Of a stretch of DNA of 64,000 nt, positions 27,269 through 56,054 are shown in pieces. Where the stretch lies: contig JAVMKO010000001.1 in assembly GCA_032164245.1 (NCBI GenBank), positions 81,465,892-81,529,891 of the forward strand, read 5' to 3'. Position numbers and translations under genes: made by a program. The notes under the pieces were generated by a model. It made no database searches, had not been told where the DNA came from, and was given only the letters and a program-made list of their open reading frames with translations. This DNA is from Sternotherus odoratus (Eukaryota > Chordata > Testudines > Kinosternidae). Each line of letters starts with the position of its first letter. The stretch's first letter is position 1.

Positions 27269-28094
27269 TGTAACGGGTCGGGGGCTCACCACCGTGCACC
27301 TCCTGCTGGACAGTCTGGGAATTAGCTCAGTTCACAGCAGAGCGCCCTCCTCTGGTGGTATCGCATCCATTTCTTGCTCCACATTGCCCTCGGTTAGCGC
27401 CTGGACTCACGCTGCTTCTCAAGTGCGTCGTCCTCTTCAGGGCACTGCCCTCCGGCAGTACCCCCAAGTCCACACTCACCCCCTTCCGGGGGGGAGGGTT
27501 CAATAGTCCCTCAGCTGTCCAGCTGCGGTGGCCAGCCACCCCAAGTCGAACCCCTTCTGGCAGGGGTGAGGTGTAGACTGTAGAGGCCACTCCCGCAGCC
27601 AGGTGCAGTCTAAGGGGAAAAAGGCGGGGGGGGACCCAGGCCCACCCCCTACTCTGGGTCCCGGCCCAGGGACCCTTTGGCAGCAGCCATCCTGCCCTCC
27701 TTCTCTCCTCCAGTCCCTTGTACTCTCCCTGGGCCACTTCCCCTGCAGCCCCTCTGCACCGGATGGCCCCTCTCTCAAGGCCGGCAGCCTGGCAGGTAAC
27801 CAGGGCAGAGCTCCCTTCTGCTCCCCCAGGGCCTGCCCAGCACTGCGCAGTCCCTGGTGCTGCAGCTCCTCTCCCAGGAGCCAGACCTTCCCCCTTGAAG
27901 GTCCAGGAAAGACTGACTGACCCTCTCCTGGGCAGCCTTCTTATAGAGCCTAGCCAGCCCCTGATTGGCTGGCTACAAGCTTGGCCCTGATTGGCCCGCA
28001 GTAGGCCCTTTTCTTACTGGTTGACAGCCTGCGCAGCCTCTCTGGCCTACTCTTGCCCCCTCTGGCAGGAGAGTGGGGCAGCCGCCCCACTACA
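27269..28094 (-). mobile_element. Solo LTR (family B)
   Basis: 826 bp starting TGTAACGGGT and ending CCCCACTACA, flanked by the 5-bp repeat GGACC (27264-27268 and 28095-28099). Read on the minus strand it has CCAAT boxes ('ccaatcagggcc', 'ccaatcaggggctgg') followed by a TATA-like 'ctctataagaaggc', which gives the orientation. No internal sequence remains. It lies about 0.7 kb upstream of CACNG2 exon 2, in the opposite orientation. Confidence 0.75.
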
Positions 28095-32911: not shown

Positions 32912-34263
<1,352 letters not shown>

Positions 34264-34799
34264 GTCTGAGTAATATAATTGGCATCATTGTGTACATATC
34301 AGCCAACGCTGGAGACCCCTCAAAGAGCGACTCCAAGAAGAACAGTTACTCCTATGGTTGGTCCTTCTACTTTGGGGCCCTGTCCTTCATTATAGCTGAG
34401 ATGGTGGGAGTGCTGGCCGTCCACATGTTTATTGACCGGCACAAACAGCTGCGTGCCAACGCTCGTGCCACGGACTACCTCCAGTCCTCCGCCATCACCC
34501 GCATCCCCAGCTACCGCTACCGCTATCAGAGACGCAGTCGCTCCAGCTCCCGTTCCACTGAGCCTTCACACTCCAGGGATGCCTCGCCCGTTGGGATCAA
34601 AGGGTTCAATACCCTCCCATCAACGGAGATCTCGATGTATACCCTGACCAGGGACCCCCTGAAGGCTGCTACCACCCCTACCGCCACCTACAATTCCGAC
34701 AGGGATAACAGTTTCCTCCAGGTTCACAACTGTATCCAGAAAGAGAACAAGGACTCTATCCACACTAACACAGCCAACCGCCGGACCACCCCGGTATGA
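34264..34799 (+). CDS. CACNG2: CACNG2 terminal coding exon (TM3-TM4, cytoplasmic tail)
   Basis: Completes TM3 ([17 protein letters not shown]), then a loop with [13 protein letters not shown]4 ([20 protein letters not shown]) and a long cytoplasmic tail. The tail carries the Arg/Ser-rich block ([20 protein letters not shown]) that in mammals is phosphorylated by CaMKII and PKC to control membrane binding. The protein ends RRTTPV, the class I PDZ ligand that binds PSD-95-type scaffolds. The stop TGA is at 34797-34799. The 536-nt exon, with 84 and 141 nt for exons 2 and 3, leaves about 211 nt for exon 1 if the protein is the usual 323 residues. The tail and PDZ ligand identify gamma-2. Confidence 0.97.
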
Positions 34800-50110: not shown

Positions 50111-50459
50111 TTGTGTGGTCAGTTGAATGCTTCTGTGACAGGTAGCATTTCAGTCAGGAAAGTCTGTGCCTTACACATATTGCCTGCAGCCCTATTACGT
50201 CATGCTGTGATCCCATCAGAGCTCACAAGTGAGGCAGGATCAAAACATCACTTGATGTAACTTGTGTATTGAAGAACCACAGAGCACCAGGTTGGATTTC
50301 CACAGCAAAAGGGCCAACTTCTATTAAAACAGAGAAAGCATTTCAAGGATCACATCACCAGCCTTTCCATCACTCTCCTCCCTGCTGCTGCTGCCCTCTA
50401 TACAGAGCTGGCTCCAGCGTACTTAATGAAACATACAGGCAGGCTAGAACACGAACCGT

Positions 50460-51001
50460 TGTGAGGGTTGAAGAAAGCAAATAATGATAAATGTTGATGC
50501 AGATATGTAAAGATCAAAATATAAGATCTCCATTAGGGAAAATGATAGACAGTTATAGTTATTGTTTGATGTTAATGTTTATAAGGTTATGAAAATGTTT
50601 TGAATCAATCATGTAACAATTGGTTTTGCACATTTATACGATCATTACCTCAACAAAGTAATATGCTGCTATTGCATGTTCTGTGCACAAGCAATGCAAC
50701 AATCCTGCAAAAAGGGCGCGAAATCTGTCCAATCACGCTGTTCCTACCACGTGCCTGCTCCACGTGAGTAGTCTAAATCTGCCTAGCAATATGGGATAGC
50801 CAATCATGTAACACATAAAGAAACTGCGTAGTTAACCAAGACTATAAAACTGTAAGTTAAGCGTGGTTGGTGTGGCAGTTTCTTCACGCTTTTGGGCGGC
50901 TGCCACCTCGGCCGAATAAACACGTTTTGTTTTGAGCCTCATTGGTCTCCTTGAACTTTATTACCGATCTCCCTCAATAGCCTAGCGAACATCCCGCTAC
51001 A
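50460..51001 (+). repeat. 5' LTR
   Basis: 542 bp, TGTGAGGGTT...CCCGCTACA. Promoter-like elements: CCAAT at 50729-50733 and 50800-50804, two CACGTG E-boxes at 50748-50753 and 50761-50766, and TATAAAA at 50843-50849. The poly(A) signal AATAAA is at 50915-50920, so R should start near 50870 and U5 runs to 51001. No difference from the 3' LTR was found by eye. Confidence 0.95.
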
Positions 51002-51006
51002 TCTTC

Positions 51007-51024
51007 TGGGGGCTCGTCCGGGAT
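51007..51024 (+). promoter_or_regulatory. Primer binding site, tRNA-Pro type
   Basis: TGGGGGCTCGTCCGGGAT, five bases after the LTR end, is the 18-nt site complementary to the 3' end of proline tRNA. It is the usual primer of murine-leukaemia-like retroviruses and many class I endogenous elements. The leader from here to the gag ATG at 51562 is about 540 nt and should hold the packaging signal, which I cannot delimit. Confidence 0.95.
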
Positions 51025-51456
51025 GTCGAGGGACGATCAGGAGCAGGTTCAGGGATAAGTCCATTGGGGACTTGCAGGGGTGAGTCTGCTTCGGGGACCG
51101 GCACAGAAGCGGTGCATCGAGAGGGGCCCCGTTTTGACCGGTGGCCGCTCGTGGGCCGGTTCACCGTTCAGATTGCCTTTTTGCGCCAACGGAGAGGCTT
51201 TGAAAACAACCGTGGGGAAAGGGAGGGAAACTCCAGCCAGTCTCCGGAAAGGCAAGTATAAGAGGGTCTCTGGGAGGGATCTTCTCGTTGGAGTGACTGA
51301 TTGTGTGTGTGACTAAGTGAATGGCCATTACGGTTCCTGTTGTCAGCCGTTGGAACGTCCGGTGACACAGGCTAGTGGCGATTGAGAGTAAACCTCAACC
51401 CTCCCACCAACCGACTCCCCCATCCTCTATAGTCGGTTGGGAACCCGTCTTCCCTA

Positions 51457-54024
51457 TTGTGTCTGTTTTATCTGTTCTATCTGGGTGGAGAGGTAGATAA
51501 GAAAAGTAAAGACAGCTGTAAAGTCAGGCTAGTGAGGGTGCCCCAAGACCTAGTTTGCAAAATGGGAGGAAGCGGATCCAAGGAAGACCGCAAAACACCT
51601 CTAACTTGCATGTTAGAGCATTTTGGAGAATTCAAAAAGCGTATTCCCACCGGCAGCCGCAAGGCCGGATTGTTAAAGAAATTTTGTGAAAAAGACTGGC
51701 CGGCATTTCCAATTCAGCCCACGTGGCCAGCCATAGGGACTTTGGACATGGATATTATTAGAGATATCCTCAATTTCACAGGACACCAACACCCCGATCA
51801 GTACCCTTATATATCTGCATGGTTTGATATAGTGGAGGAGAATCCATCTTGGTTACAAAGATACACCAAATGCCTAGTCCTTCGCACACGTTCACAGAGG
51901 AGACTCAGGGGAACCCCGGAGGAATCGAAACCTATCTATCCAAGCCTCCCAGACGATGAGCCACTAGCCCCACCCCCTTACATGCCGCTACCCGTAGTCC
52001 CGGCCGCCCCGCTCGAGCCTATGCCTATACCGCCAGCACCAACAGTCCCGCCGCCAAGCGTAGCAGGCATGTCCGTCTCAAATTCACCAACTGACTCCGG
52101 TCGGTTAGGTTTACAGCAACTTGAAGAAAGTGTGGTGAAACTTCAGCCACTTTTAACTCCCGAAAGAAAAACTAAGGATCATGATTCTAATCAAGATAAT
52201 AGAAAAACGCACTTAAAACCCTGTGAAACAAAAAATAGTTCTAAGAAAAGATTTGAGTTATCTGAAATTGCAAAGAAAGAAAAGGGTGGTTTTGATTCAG
52301 AAAGTGTAGAAGAAGGCCGCTCAAATACTTCAAAAAGTCCAGAAGTCATTACTTTGGTGAACAATATTTCTAATTATCATAATGATTATAGCTGCCAGAA
52401 GAGAAAGAGGATAGAGTCAGATGAAGAACTAATAAGTAATGTTCAGAAATTACAGCTATACAGCTGTCAAAGAATAATACCAATGTCTGGTAAAAATGTT
52501 TGGCATTATAAATCATGTGCTAGAACTTCTGAATGGTGTCATAAAAATCATGTGTCTGCCCTAGAAGACAAGACTTCAACTTCTGGTTTTCAAGAATGCT
52601 CATATGAAGACAATACTGAAGCTGTAAGAGAGATGGTTTTACCTCCTAACACCAGGCAATTAGATCTAAAAATGTTGGAGGCAGAAAATATCAAAGAACC
52701 AGTATGTAAAATAATAGTAAATTCCAATACTAAATATCTGATTTTTATTAGAATGCTGGAGTCTTCATCATTGGATATTCGTGGGTCTTTAACAGTCACC
52801 TGTAATAATAATCCAAAGTCACTGATGGATAATAGTCCCATTGGTTCTCAGTCTGAAGGTATTCCTGAAGCTCAGGTGACCTTAGATGTAGTAATAGAAC
52901 AAAAACCAAAATTAGGCTTCCCCGACTTGAACCAATCTTCTACACTGTATGTAGGAGTAGGAGAAGGTATTGCAGTTGGTGTCTTAACCCAGACCATCGG
53001 TAGCTGGCCGCGACCAGTAGCATACTTCTCTAAGCAACTAGATACTGTAATACAAGGATGGCCACCCTGCCTACGTGCCGTAGCTGCAGCTGCCCTTCTT
53101 GCTGAAGAGGCAAGTAAACTCACCCTAGGACAACCAATCTCCTTAAAGTGCCCACATGCTGTGGTCACCCTAATGGAACATAGGGGCCATCATTGGATGA
53201 CAAACACCAAACTCCTCAAGTATGAAAGTATATTAGTAGACAATCCTTCTGTTACCATCTCTGTCTGTTCCACCCTTAATCCTGCAACTATACTGCCAGT
53301 AGAAGAAGATCCCACAGAAAAACATAATTGTCTTCAAGTCATGGAAGAAGTCTATTCTAGCCGACCTGACCTACTGGATACACCTTTAGCCACACCTGAC
53401 TCTGTCCTTTTCACCGATGGTAGTAGTTTTATTGATCAAGGTCAACGTTTGGCAGGGTATGCCATAGTCAATGATCAAGGCACTATCTGTGAAGCAAAGG
53501 CACTTCCCCCTGGCACCTCCGCCCAGAAGGCTGAACTGGTCGCCCTCCGCCGAGCACTTGAACTAGCAACAGGGCAAAAGGTCAATGTCTACACTGACTC
53601 AAAATATGCCTTCCTAACACTCCATGCCCATGGTGCCATATACAGGGAAAGAGGACTTCTGACTTCAAACGGACAGAAAATAAAGCATGCAGACGAAATC
53701 CTAGCCCTTCTTGATGCTGTTTGGATGCCCAAACAAGTTGCTGTAATGCACTGCAAAGGACACCAACATGGTGAGGATCCTGTCGCAAAAGGAAACCGAC
53801 AGGCAGATGAAGAAGCAAGGAATGCAGCGCGTCAGCAATCTCCAGCTATTCATATCCAGCACCTCAACGTGGCTGAAATGATTCCTGCTGAAGTACACTA
53901 CACTGCACAAGAACAACTTTGGGCTGAACAGGAAAAAGGAGTAAAGCGATCAGGTTTATATGTTTTGCCAAATAATAAAATCTTCCTGCCCGCAGTGGTA
54001 GCTTGGGAATTGATTCAGGAATGA
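51457..54024 (+). CDS. Chimeric gag - foreign segment - pol open frame
   Basis: One 855-codon frame joins three unlike parts. Codons 1-35 are an in-frame leader. From the ATG at 51562 come about 180 codons of matrix-like gag. About 265 codons of unrecognised, non-retroviral sequence follow. The rest, from about residue 485, is the RT connection region ('LGFPDL'), RNase H, and the start of integrase. It ends at a TGA (54022-54024); the same frame continues as integrase beyond it. Because gag and pol are normally separated by a stop, protease and RT, this join comes from deletion and replacement rather than normal readthrough. The product would be membrane-targeted if its N-terminal Gly is myristoylated; whether it is made is unknown. 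Confidence 0.85.
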   Translation: MCLFYLFYLGGEVDKKSKDSCKVRLVRVPQDLVCKMGGSGSKEDRKTPLTCMLEHFGEFKKRIPTGSRKAGLLKKFCEKDWPAFPIQPTWPAIGTLDMDIIRDILNFTGHQHPDQYPYISAWFDIVEENPSWLQRYTKCLVLRTRSQRRLRGTPEESKPIYPSLPDDEPLAPPPYMPLPVVPAAPLEPMPIPPAPTVPPPSVAGMSVSNSPTDSGRLGLQQLEESVVKLQPLLTPERKTKDHDSNQDNRKTHLKPCETKNSSKKRFELSEIAKKEKGGFDSESVEEGRSNTSKSPEVITLVNNISNYHNDYSCQKRKRIESDEELISNVQKLQLYSCQRIIPMSGKNVWHYKSCARTSEWCHKNHVSALEDKTSTSGFQECSYEDNTEAVREMVLPPNTRQLDLKMLEAENIKEPVCKIIVNSNTKYLIFIRMLESSSLDIRGSLTVTCNNNPKSLMDNSPIGSQSEGIPEAQVTLDVVIEQKPKLGFPDLNQSSTLYVGVGEGIAVGVLTQTIGSWPRPVAYFSKQLDTVIQGWPPCLRAVAAAALLAEEASKLTLGQPISLKCPHAVVTLMEHRGHHWMTNTKLLKYESILVDNPSVTISVCSTLNPATILPVEEDPTEKHNCLQVMEEVYSSRPDLLDTPLATPDSVLFTDGSSFIDQGQRLAGYAIVNDQGTICEAKALPPGTSAQKAELVALRRALELATGQKVNVYTDSKYAFLTLHAHGAIYRERGLLTSNGQKIKHADEILALLDAVWMPKQVAVMHCKGHQHGEDPVAKGNRQADEEARNAARQQSPAIHIQHLNVAEMIPAEVHYTAQEQLWAEQEKGVKRSGLYVLPNNKIFLPAVVAWELIQE
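51562..52104 (+). pseudogene. Truncated gag: matrix and p12-like region
   Basis: Starts MGGSGSK, a myristoylation-type N-terminus (Gly2, Ser/Lys following), as in gammaretroviral matrix. Conserved-looking matrix text includes 'CEKDWPAFPIQPTWP' and 'GHQHPDQYPYISAWFD'. A proline-rich stretch follows with a PPPY late-domain motif (51970-51981) that would recruit NEDD4-type ligases. Capsid (no major homology region) and the CCHC zinc knuckle of nucleocapsid are missing. This part is GC-richer than the next segment, and the change comes close to 52105. Confidence 0.85.
52105..52905 (+). other. Captured non-retroviral (probably cellular) coding segment, in frame
   Basis: About 265 codons without stop, AT-rich, with Lys/Ser/Asn/Glu-rich text unlike any retroviral domain. 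Short landmarks: 'HLKPCETKNSSKKRFELS', 'CQKRKRIESDEELI', 'QLYSCQRIIPMSGKNVWH', 'EPVCKIIVNSNTKYLIF' and 'SSLDIRGSLTVTCNNN'. It has the look of an intrinsically disordered, nuclear-type cellular protein with a basic KRKR patch. No capsid, zinc-knuckle, protease or RT motif occurs. It replaces those regions exactly where an acutely transforming retrovirus carries a captured gene, and the open frame shows it came from spliced or single-exon sequence. I do not recognise the donor gene. Boundaries are good to about 20 bases, judged from the composition change on the left and re-entry into pol on the right. Confidence 0.7.
52906..54024 (+). pseudogene. pol part 1: RT connection, RNase H, integrase N-terminus
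   Basis: Re-enters pol after the polymerase palm, so the YxDD active site is absent. The connection region reads 'RPVAYFSKQLD' and 'GWPPCLRAVAAAALL'. RNase H keeps all four acidic catalytic positions: Asp at 53416 (TDGSS), Glu at 53533 (KAELVAL), Asp at 53596 (YTDSKYA) and Asp at 53806 (RQADEEA). A helix-C-like region and 'MHCKGHQHGEDP' are present. The frame enters the integrase N-terminal region and ends at TGA 54022-54024, one codon before the expected zinc-binding His ('HQQTHLG'). Confidence 0.9.
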
Positions 54025-55116
54025 CACCAACAGACCCATTTAGGTAGCACTAATCTGACTGAACTCCTAGACCGTGAACTGTACATAAATGGTCTACATT
54101 CACTCACCAGACGTGCTGCCCTACGTTGTCAAACCTGTGCAAAACATAATCCTCGTGTAGGACCTCTTCGACCACCTGGAGTCTAGCATATAGGATATAG
54201 TCCGATGGAATCACTAGTTGTGGACTTCACTGAAATGCCAAAGTCTGGAAAATTTAAGTACCTGCTTGTAGCGGTTTGCACATATTCCGGCTGGGTTGAG
54301 GCATGGCCTACCACTAATGAAAAGGCTGAGCAAGTTACTAAGGCCCTGCTCCGAGATGTAATCCCCCGATTTGGACTCCCATTACACATTGGAAGTGATA
54401 ATGGTCCCGCTTTTGTTCATAAAATCATCCGCTCCTTGTCAACACTTTTGGGCATCACTTGGAAACTCCACTGTGCATATTACCCACAAGCATCAGGAAA
54501 AATTAAAAGAGTAAATAGAACTCTAAAAATTATTGTGGGGAAAATCTGTCAGGAAACCGGCTTATCATGGATTGTAGCTTTGCCTATGGCATTGCGCAAA
54601 ATTCGATGCACACCTACACGATCTTCAAAGCTCTCACCCTATGAGCTAGTGTTTGGCCGACCACCGCTAGGGGTCCACCACTTGAAAGGGGATACTTACC
54701 TTCTGGGAAAGCAAGATCTTATTAGAGAAGTTCAGCTCCTAAGCAAAGTGTTAGCTCAATTATCCACCTACGTTAGTGAGCTCAAGTTCCCTTTCCCTGT
54801 CACTGCTCTGCACCCTTTCTCCCCAGGAGATACTGTATGGCTCAAGGATTGGAAAATTAATCCTTTGGGACCTAAATGGAAGGGTCCCTATATTATTCTC
54901 CTTACCACTCCCACTGCTGTTAAATTAGCCCGTGTTAAGCCTTGGATTCATTATACCCGTGTCAAGTCTGATCACACATCGCCTCCCCCTAACTGGCAAG
55001 TTTCTGTAAAGAGCTCCAACCCTCTGCAAATCGTCTTCCGCAAACCAGCCCAACCACCTGGTCAGCAAGATGCTCAACCTACCTCTTGTGAGTCAGGTGA
55101 CCAAGCACCACTCTGA
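54025..55116 (+). pseudogene. pol part 2: integrase, inactivated
   Basis: Same frame as part 1, after the TGA. 54025-54183 holds the HHCC zinc-binding region ('HQQTHLG', 'CQTCAKH'), then a second in-frame stop, TAG at 54184-54186. From 54205 the catalytic core is open: first Asp at 54223 (VVDFTE) and second Asp at 54397 (GSDNGP). At the third catalytic position, 35 residues further on (54505-54507), the usual Glu is Lys. The C-terminal domain ends with 'GPKWKGPYIILLTTP' and 'VKPWIHYTRVK'. The stop at 55114-55116 is followed by no env. As an integrase this copy is dead in three independent ways. Confidence 0.9.
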
Positions 55117-55442
55117 AAACCTGCACTACTGTATGATAATGTATTCCTTAGAAAATCTTATTCACCTGTTGCCCCAAAACGTTACTGTAATGTTTCTCAG
55201 GAAAAAGGGGCAGAGGTGGGTTTGTTTAATGTGTGTGAAGTATACTATTTTTGATATTTTTGTTTATAATAAGTTCTCCTATTCAACCTTATCTTAATGT
55301 GTTATATATTCTGTATGTCTGAAAAGTAGTTTAGATCCTGTAATCTGTTATGGTCCAACAGAATAATGTTAATGTTCAAAAATTCACCAATAACTGGTAA
55401 TAATAATGTTTAGAGTGTTGCTAGTTTGCAATAACTAGCAAC
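55117..55442 (+). other. Provirus 3' internal region without env
   Basis: About 325 bp between the end of pol and the polypurine tract. No envelope motifs (no furin site, CXXC, CKS17-like or transmembrane segment) are visible. A 75-codon frame (55070-55297) has no recognisable homology. Either env was deleted or this lineage spread without it. Confidence 0.7.
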
Positions 55443-55458
55443 AAGAAAAAGGAGGGAA
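55443..55458 (+). promoter_or_regulatory. Polypurine tract (plus-strand primer)
   Basis: AAGAAAAAGGAGGGAA abuts the TG of the 3' LTR, as required for plus-strand priming. Confidence 0.9.
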
Positions 55459-56000
55459 TGTGAGGGTTGAAGAAAGCAAATAATGATAAATGTTGATGCA
55501 GATATGTAAAGATCAAAATATAAGATCTCCATTAGGGAAAATGATAGACAGTTATAGTTATTGTTTGATGTTAATGTTTATAAGGTTATGAAAATGTTTT
55601 GAATCAATCATGTAACAATTGGTTTTGCACATTTATACGATCATTACCTCAACAAAGTAATATGCTGCTATTGCATGTTCTGTGCACAAGCAATGCAACA
55701 ATCCTGCAAAAAGGGCGCGAAATCTGTCCAATCACGCTGTTCCTACCACGTGCCTGCTCCACGTGAGTAGTCTAAATCTGCCTAGCAATATGGGATAGCC
55801 AATCATGTAACACATAAAGAAACTGCGTAGTTAACCAAGACTATAAAACTGTAAGTTAAGCGTGGTTGGTGTGGCAGTTTCTTCACGCTTTTGGGCGGCT
55901 GCCACCTCGGCCGAATAAACACGTTTTGTTTTGAGCCTCATTGGTCTCCTTGAACTTTATTACCGATCTCCCTCAATAGCCTAGCGAACATCCCGCTACA
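55459..56000 (+). repeat. 3' LTR
   Basis: 542 bp, same length as the 5' LTR and identical wherever I compared it (whole length read by eye). TATA at 55842-55848 and AATAAA at 55914-55919. It could act as a promoter facing EIF3D. CCGT follows at 56001-56004. Confidence 0.95.
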
Positions 56001-56054
56001 CCGTCTTGTGCCTCTTACATAATTATATGCTACCCCATTACCACAACACCACAG

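Follow-up and report, generated by a model that had tools for sequence, protein, structure and literature searches.

The window analysed here, 64,000 nucleotides of contig JAVMKO010000001.1 (positions 81,465,892 to 81,529,891) from the turtle Sternotherus odoratus, contains an endogenous retrovirus (ERV) of 5,541 bp, at 50460-56000, in which a piece of the host gene TOPAZ1 stands in frame between gag and pol (Table 1). Its two long terminal repeats (LTRs) are 100% identical, and CCGT lies on either side of the element. A single open frame of 863 codons (51433-54024), with the gag ATG at 51562, passes from matrix (MA) and PPPY through the foreign segment into the connection region of reverse transcriptase (RT) and RNase H, ending at the stop at 54022. 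Pfam places Gag_MA (E 1.4e-10) and RNase_H (E 1.3e-26) on either side of the foreign stretch, which itself matches no Pfam family up to E 1 and has a GC content of 0.34, against 0.52 in gag and 0.46 in pol. Capsid, protease and RT polymerase are absent from the element, and no env is found between integrase (IN) and the 3' LTR. Features of ERV1 or gammaretrovirus-like elements include a 4-bp target duplication and a primer site of the proline transfer RNA (tRNA-Pro) type; the window element has the duplication and a primer-binding site that we take to be of this type, along with MLV-type matrix (PF01140) and integrase C-terminal (PF18697) domains above cut-off, and is placed in this group. A protein search with the gag part gave no match at E 0.001 among 676 candidates, and a search of solved structures gave one marginal match (E 0.037), which was disregarded.

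The origin of the foreign stretch is clear from a protein search with the whole frame, in which the middle segment finds 14 proteins, turtle TOPAZ1 at E 8.6e-89. Eleven of the 14 are named TOPAZ1 or TOPZ1, one is named C3orf77, given in PMC3206057 as an older human name of TOPAZ1, and two are models under other names; the C3orf77 protein and these two models are 83-85% identical to exon 2 of host TOPAZ1. The host genome carries one TOPAZ1 locus, on C2, which was found via the exons of PF14669 (all four matches of which lie there) and then completed by tblastn with Terrapene TOPAZ1. The insert aligns to C2:159961982-159962694 with 88.9% identity over 713 bp of DNA, and the matched stretch lies inside an 873-codon open frame containing TOPAZ1 exon 2. 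At the protein level the insert shares 78% of residues with the corresponding host segment versus 65-67% with those of other cryptodires. The capture therefore came from the host's own lineage. The host exon itself is 80-85% identical in protein to other cryptodires and 69% to Pelusios, values by which the host would probably be an early-branching cryptodire, a softshell turtle for example. The viral parts match none of the 14 proteins, so that such a chimera is unseen in the proteins of other turtles, which is weak evidence; short TOPAZ1-like proteins were not found among 146 candidates. A PAZ domain is placed in TOPAZ1 exon 2 by PMC3206057; Pfam finds none in the insert, and none in Terrapene TOPAZ1 at E up to 10.

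Relatives without the insert, present in the same genome, locate both junctions. The gag homology of eight such relatives extends to 52192-52197, host homology starts at 52197, and the pol homology of seven relatives begins at 52911-52912. In all eight, gag continues past the junction without any insert, and beyond this point it runs into capsid in both of the relatives scanned (Gag_p30, E about 1e-43). At the 5' junction AATCAAGAT meets host AATAGAAAAA; at the 3' junction host AAACAAAAAC is followed by one extra C, then by AAGAT-like bases, then by pol TTAGGCC. There is little microhomology at either place, and both junctions lie inside the exon and were therefore not made by splicing. We call these relatives full-length as shorthand only, gag having been seen in eight, a 3' LTR in four and a 5' LTR in none, with pol known from the RNase H places. 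In the four examined for env it is absent, integrase leading directly to the LTR.

An earlier reading of this DNA, made from its sequence alone (hereafter the sequence-only reading), had proposed a captured host piece in frame between gag and pol. This is borne out by the TOPAZ1 exon match and by the insert-free relatives, the alignment to which, also suggested there, fixed both junctions. The loss of everything from capsid through RT polymerase was likewise correctly seen, as the relatives run into capsid at this point of gag. The foreign segment exists, but its borders (then given as 52105-52905) move to 52197-52911, the first 92 bases still being gag, and the donor, then unrecognised, is TOPAZ1 at its single locus on C2. 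As for the way in which capture was to be proved, the host locus has been found, but missing exon junctions are unusable as proof because the segment lies inside one exon. The sequence-only reading had also said what would speak against capture, namely the same segment as a normal part of gag in relatives, or a match to a viral accessory gene in place of a host exon. Nothing was found in favour of a segment native to gag, or of a host gene acquired from the virus, and we regard either as extremely improbable: all eight gag-bearing relatives lack the segment, which refutes the idea for the copies sampled and rules out a native gag or accessory gene, and the captured part of TOPAZ1 is also present in other turtles (65-84% identity) and in birds.

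The window copy is not a single germline-fixed capture, as had been supposed, but one member of a family. With the host segment as query, 58 candidates were obtained. Forty of them were scored, namely the gene itself and 39 places that align over the whole of the same 713 bases. Patterns spanning the junctions, searched with up to 3 mismatches allowed, were found at 56 (5') and 54 (3') places in the genome, and their reversed forms, used as controls, at 0 places. Every one of the 54 3' sites pairs with a 5' site; the spacing is the same in 48 pairs, longer by 3 in three and by 1 in two, and interrupted (3,352) in one. The two 5' sites that lack a 3' partner are diverged copies on C12. The recurrence of the same two junctions at 56 and 54 places indicates one capture followed by amplification to about 56 places, and chance as an explanation of the insert is excluded, judging by the TOPAZ1 match and by these recurrent junctions against none in the controls. 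With a host-derived segment common to many ERV copies, absent from eight of eight relatives, and a donor locus in the host, the insert is classed as a captured host gene. Two classes of insert can be distinguished by their identity to the host exon (95% in the C12 copies, 88-91% in the others), and there are two gag backbones, as two or more independent captures of TOPAZ1 might have left. We nevertheless consider repeated capture too improbable to carry weight, as all 39 scored places other than the gene share the same ends, and as one copy, L008 (L numbers are our locus labels), has both junctions, including the extra C near the 3' one, and sits between the host and the remaining clade.

The insertions are young and independent. 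LTR pairs of 22 insert copies differ by 0-0.73%, with no mismatch in eight of them, and exact 4-bp target duplications flank 19 of the 22. The exceptions are L015, where 3 of 4 bases agree, and L025 and L026, where the match to the 3' LTR ends 5 bases short; these last two are one insertion duplicated together with its flanks. The 22 comprise 19 high-ranking matches, one further copy, the window copy and L008, and were chosen for likeness to the window copy, except for L008 and C2:156405185. The LTRs of L008 differ by 2 of 487 bases.

L008 also gives a view of the earlier history of the insert. Its insert, which carries a frameshift, is 4.2% away from the host sequence and 7.5-8.7% away from the other copies, which in turn lie 9.6-11% from the host. 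Compared with the host, L008 and the other copies have 18 insert changes in common, 13 of them G to A, 9 of these before A (background 59/152 G), a pattern that may reflect editing or biased copying soon after the capture, or changes in the host gene. The element also exchanges parts with its insert-free relatives. Between the window copy and L010, identity is 99.2-99.7% in the insert and 98.7% in the LTR part, falling to 84% in MA and 86% in IN, and the gag of the window copy is 97.6% identical to that of insert-free L083. The gags of all 19 sister copies (L010-L028) are 83.5-87.0% identical to the eight insert-free gags, and L023 has the IN type of the window copy (97.7%). Variants per site among insert copies number 0.041 in the insert versus 0.072-0.091 in leader, gag and pol, presumably because insert-free relatives feed variation into the remaining parts only. 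Taken together, these comparisons identify the insert element as a mosaic that recombines with insert-free relatives.

Selection on the insert protein was looked for among the fixed changes and was not found. The 42 changes fixed on the insert-copy branch comprise 30 nonsynonymous and 12 synonymous ones, a fraction (0.71) equal to that from random placement of the same kinds of change, and for all 60 fixed insert changes the nonsynonymous fraction is 0.70 versus 0.72 at random (P 0.35). Because the amino-acid changes fit neutrality, the insert appears to ride along in frame, as a passenger or a linker, without working as TOPAZ1 protein. In 13 of 20 copies the frame stays open from the region of the gag start through to where the locus ends, but an absence of stops is by itself too weak to demonstrate selection (P 0.13 with the 60 fixed changes, and 0.23). 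Myristoylation requires an N-terminal glycine, as in the matrix start MGGSGS of the window copy and of all eight insert-free relatives. Eighteen of the 19 sisters begin MEGSGS (L018 is unreadable there) and lack the acceptor glycine, so that the window copy, unlike these sisters, could plausibly make the membrane-targeted fusion proposed in the sequence-only reading.

A working protein would be a Gag-TOPAZ1-RNase H/IN fusion made in germ cells that competes with or redirects host TOPAZ1 and so helps the element. TOPAZ1 has, according to PMC3206057, a proposed role in retrotransposon silencing, and is germ-cell specific in the mouse. The segment is in frame at both ends, the frame is retained in most copies, and the insert variants of 20 copies tend towards amino-acid change (25 nonsynonymous, 6 synonymous, P 0.046; 24 and 6 in 18 copies, P 0.075), which selection for change could also produce. 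Such a protein is nevertheless very unlikely given the random-like fixed changes, the missing glycine in the sisters, and the broken insert frame of L008, an element whose LTRs have hardly diverged. The insert might instead work as RNA, its likeness to an essential germ-cell transcript aiding expression, packaging or escape from small-RNA silencing. This would agree with amino acids that fit neutrality while the insert is kept in all 54 paired junction sites, which were found by the junctions of the insert itself, and with an RNA fold slightly more stable than shuffles (z -2.0, 1/20 as stable), but that signal is weak and a divergence of 10.7% from the gene weakens any camouflage, and we hold this to be unlikely.

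The explanation that we prefer, with a probability of roughly 0.75, is a single capture by template switching, followed by mobilisation in trans of an env-less element, recombination, and the insert carried along as a passenger. In a germ cell of this turtle lineage, a TOPAZ1 transcript would have been reverse transcribed along with the RNA of a gammaretrovirus-like ERV that lacked env, with one template switch from gag to the inside of TOPAZ1 exon 2 and a second back into pol. The chimeric genome (LTR, gag with matrix/p12, TOPAZ1, pol with RT connection, RNase H and integrase, LTR) would have retained LTRs, primer site, leader and open frame, and lost capsid, protease and RT polymerase, which relatives would provide in trans. 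It would then have amplified to about 56 places, recent insertions included, while swapping parts of gag and pol with relatives. Of this, the donor, the junctions, the common origin, the copy number, the mosaic structure and the young age and independence of the insertions are established. Although RT polymerase, protease and capsid are missing from the element, its young insertions are many, and coding relatives exist: of the 150 RNase H places scored, 105 fall in frames of at least 1,200 codons, and two of the 105 bear the insert. Together with the lack of env in the relatives examined, these long frames favour movement by relatives, and the element thus appears to be env-less, non-autonomous and moved by them.

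Several points weigh against this explanation. Movement in trans, expression, germ-cell origin and template switching, like the role of the insert as linker or passenger, are inferred, and, the capture being inside one exon, an mRNA source would look the same as genomic readthrough. Preservation of the frame could point to a protein that matters: 19 of 20 copies have no stop in the insert, and the junctions are 697 or 700 bases apart in 51 of 54. The ratio of nonsynonymous to synonymous rates (dN/dS) is below 1 (0.62) for host versus window copy and 0.48 for host versus L008, both values including host evolution. Outside the insert, the 18 copies with 24 nonsynonymous and 6 synonymous insert variants lean to constraint, P being 0.046 for gag, 0.058 for the RT connection, <0.001 for RNase H and 0.015 for IN, in a test made without the window copy and L026, the duplicate of L025, and for IN also without L023; imported helper sequence may account for the constraint in RNase H and IN. 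By the same kind of test, gag is constrained in six of eight pairs; the others are L086-L089 (P 0.15) and L085-L090, which is invalid since the frame of L085 is itself broken, and L008 was left aside, its gag stretch being too short.

Acutely transforming retroviruses carry gag-host-pol fusions (e.g. gag-onc viruses) and are defective and helper-dependent. The turtle element resembles them in its in-frame gag-host fusion, rejoin in pol and loss of viral genes. It differs in being a germline family with env-less relatives and no tumour context, and an infectious env-bearing helper was not seen among the four relatives examined, all of which pass from integrase to LTR. TOPAZ1 is not known as an oncogene. 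Among reptiles, Chong et al. 2014 (PMC4299795) describe the crocodilian CrocERV29 and CrocERV31, which carry KIT-ligand and nectin3 respectively. As in these, a host gene lies within a multi-copy reptile ERV, some copies being nearer the donor than others, and spread by retrotransposition without env, which that paper infers for the nectin3 line, would suit the env-less turtle element. The crocodilian captures are reported there as whole mRNA reading frames, between pol and env or replacing env, under purifying selection; the turtle element, unlike them, has an internal exon fragment between gag and pol, capsid to RT being lost, and its exon 2 fragment, whose fixed changes fit neutrality, is not a complete captured reading frame under such selection. 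The maize element Bs1, an LTR element, also holds transduced host segments, from three genes of a plant according to PMC13317346, whereas the turtle element took from a single gene, numbers about 56 copies and shares its genome with helper relatives. Defective ERV recombinants, RecKoRV among them, as presented in PMC11905727, likewise spread as a defective form with helper relatives; here the foreign part is an identified host exon in frame.

Germline capture of host genes by ERVs is thus known already, and what is new here is a meiosis gene fused internally between gag and pol and present in many young copies. No TOPAZ1-bearing retrovirus was found in the open-access literature searched. Retroviral capture of host genes is known mostly from tumours, with few germline cases described. 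Here the exon that was the source, copies of an early type (4.2% away from it), about fifty young ones, relatives lacking the insert and recombinants all lie in one genome, and the history of a capture can therefore be read from it. A vertebrate ERV has spread part of a gene that is expressed in the same cells where the ERV must jump, and disturbance of the donor gene by such fragments, e.g. via small RNAs, becomes testable; male Topaz1 knock-out mice are reported in PMC8281061 as sterile with meiotic arrest. One might speculate that a selfish germline element uses the piece of a meiosis gene, as RNA or protein, to pass germ-cell defences to which TOPAZ1 may belong, possibly at a cost to fertility, though we think this quite unlikely.

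Table 1. Features of the provirus, in window coordinates
Feature	Position	Strand	Basis
Target-site duplication CCGT, 5' copy	50456..50459	.	flank comparison
5' LTR, 542 bp; TATAAA at 50843, AATAAA at 50915	50460..51001	+	identical to 3' LTR; motif scan
Primer-binding site TGGGGGCTCGTCCGGGAT	51007..51024	+	motif scan
5' part of gag: matrix and PPPY region; PPPY codons from 51970; L083-type gag	51562..52196	+	Gag_MA match, relatives, motifs
Host-derived segment from within TOPAZ1 exon 2; sense orientation, reading frame continuous at both ends	52197..52911	+	homology to host exon
pol fragment: RT connection and RNase H; RNase_H match 53401-53829	52912..53840	+	Pfam; insert-free relatives
pol fragment: integrase region (rve, MLVIN_C); in-frame stops at 54022 and 54184 break window copy	53841..55116	+	Pfam; motifs
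Polypurine tract	55446..55458	+	motif scan
3' LTR, 542 bp	55459..56000	+	identical to 5' LTR
Target-site duplication CCGT, 3' copy	56001..56004	.	flank comparison

Some further observations concern individual copies. Six insert copies form a subtype with the common junction variants TAGTCAAGAT and CCAGAATTAGAC (C2:169990929, C3:162090210, C4:13903631, C9:53626673, C12:8132082 and C14:30483432), 96.8% identical to the window insert in L097. In the copy at G000:C14:30483432-30486816 the junctions are 3,352 bases apart, something having been inserted within. L064 and L065 (G000:C11, near 4.24 and 4.10 Mb) have 5' flanks identical over 100% of 180 bases and 3' flanks 99% identical, being one insertion duplicated with its surroundings. 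On G000:C212, pol frames of the insert-free type have RNase H matches at 28004, 43205 and 58406, spaced by exactly 15,201 bases in the manner of a tandem array. Upstream of the provirus, two open stretches at 32912-34796 of the window match PMP22_Claudin (E 0.00036, under cut-off, and 2.9e-12) and are probably exons of a claudin-like or TARP gene.
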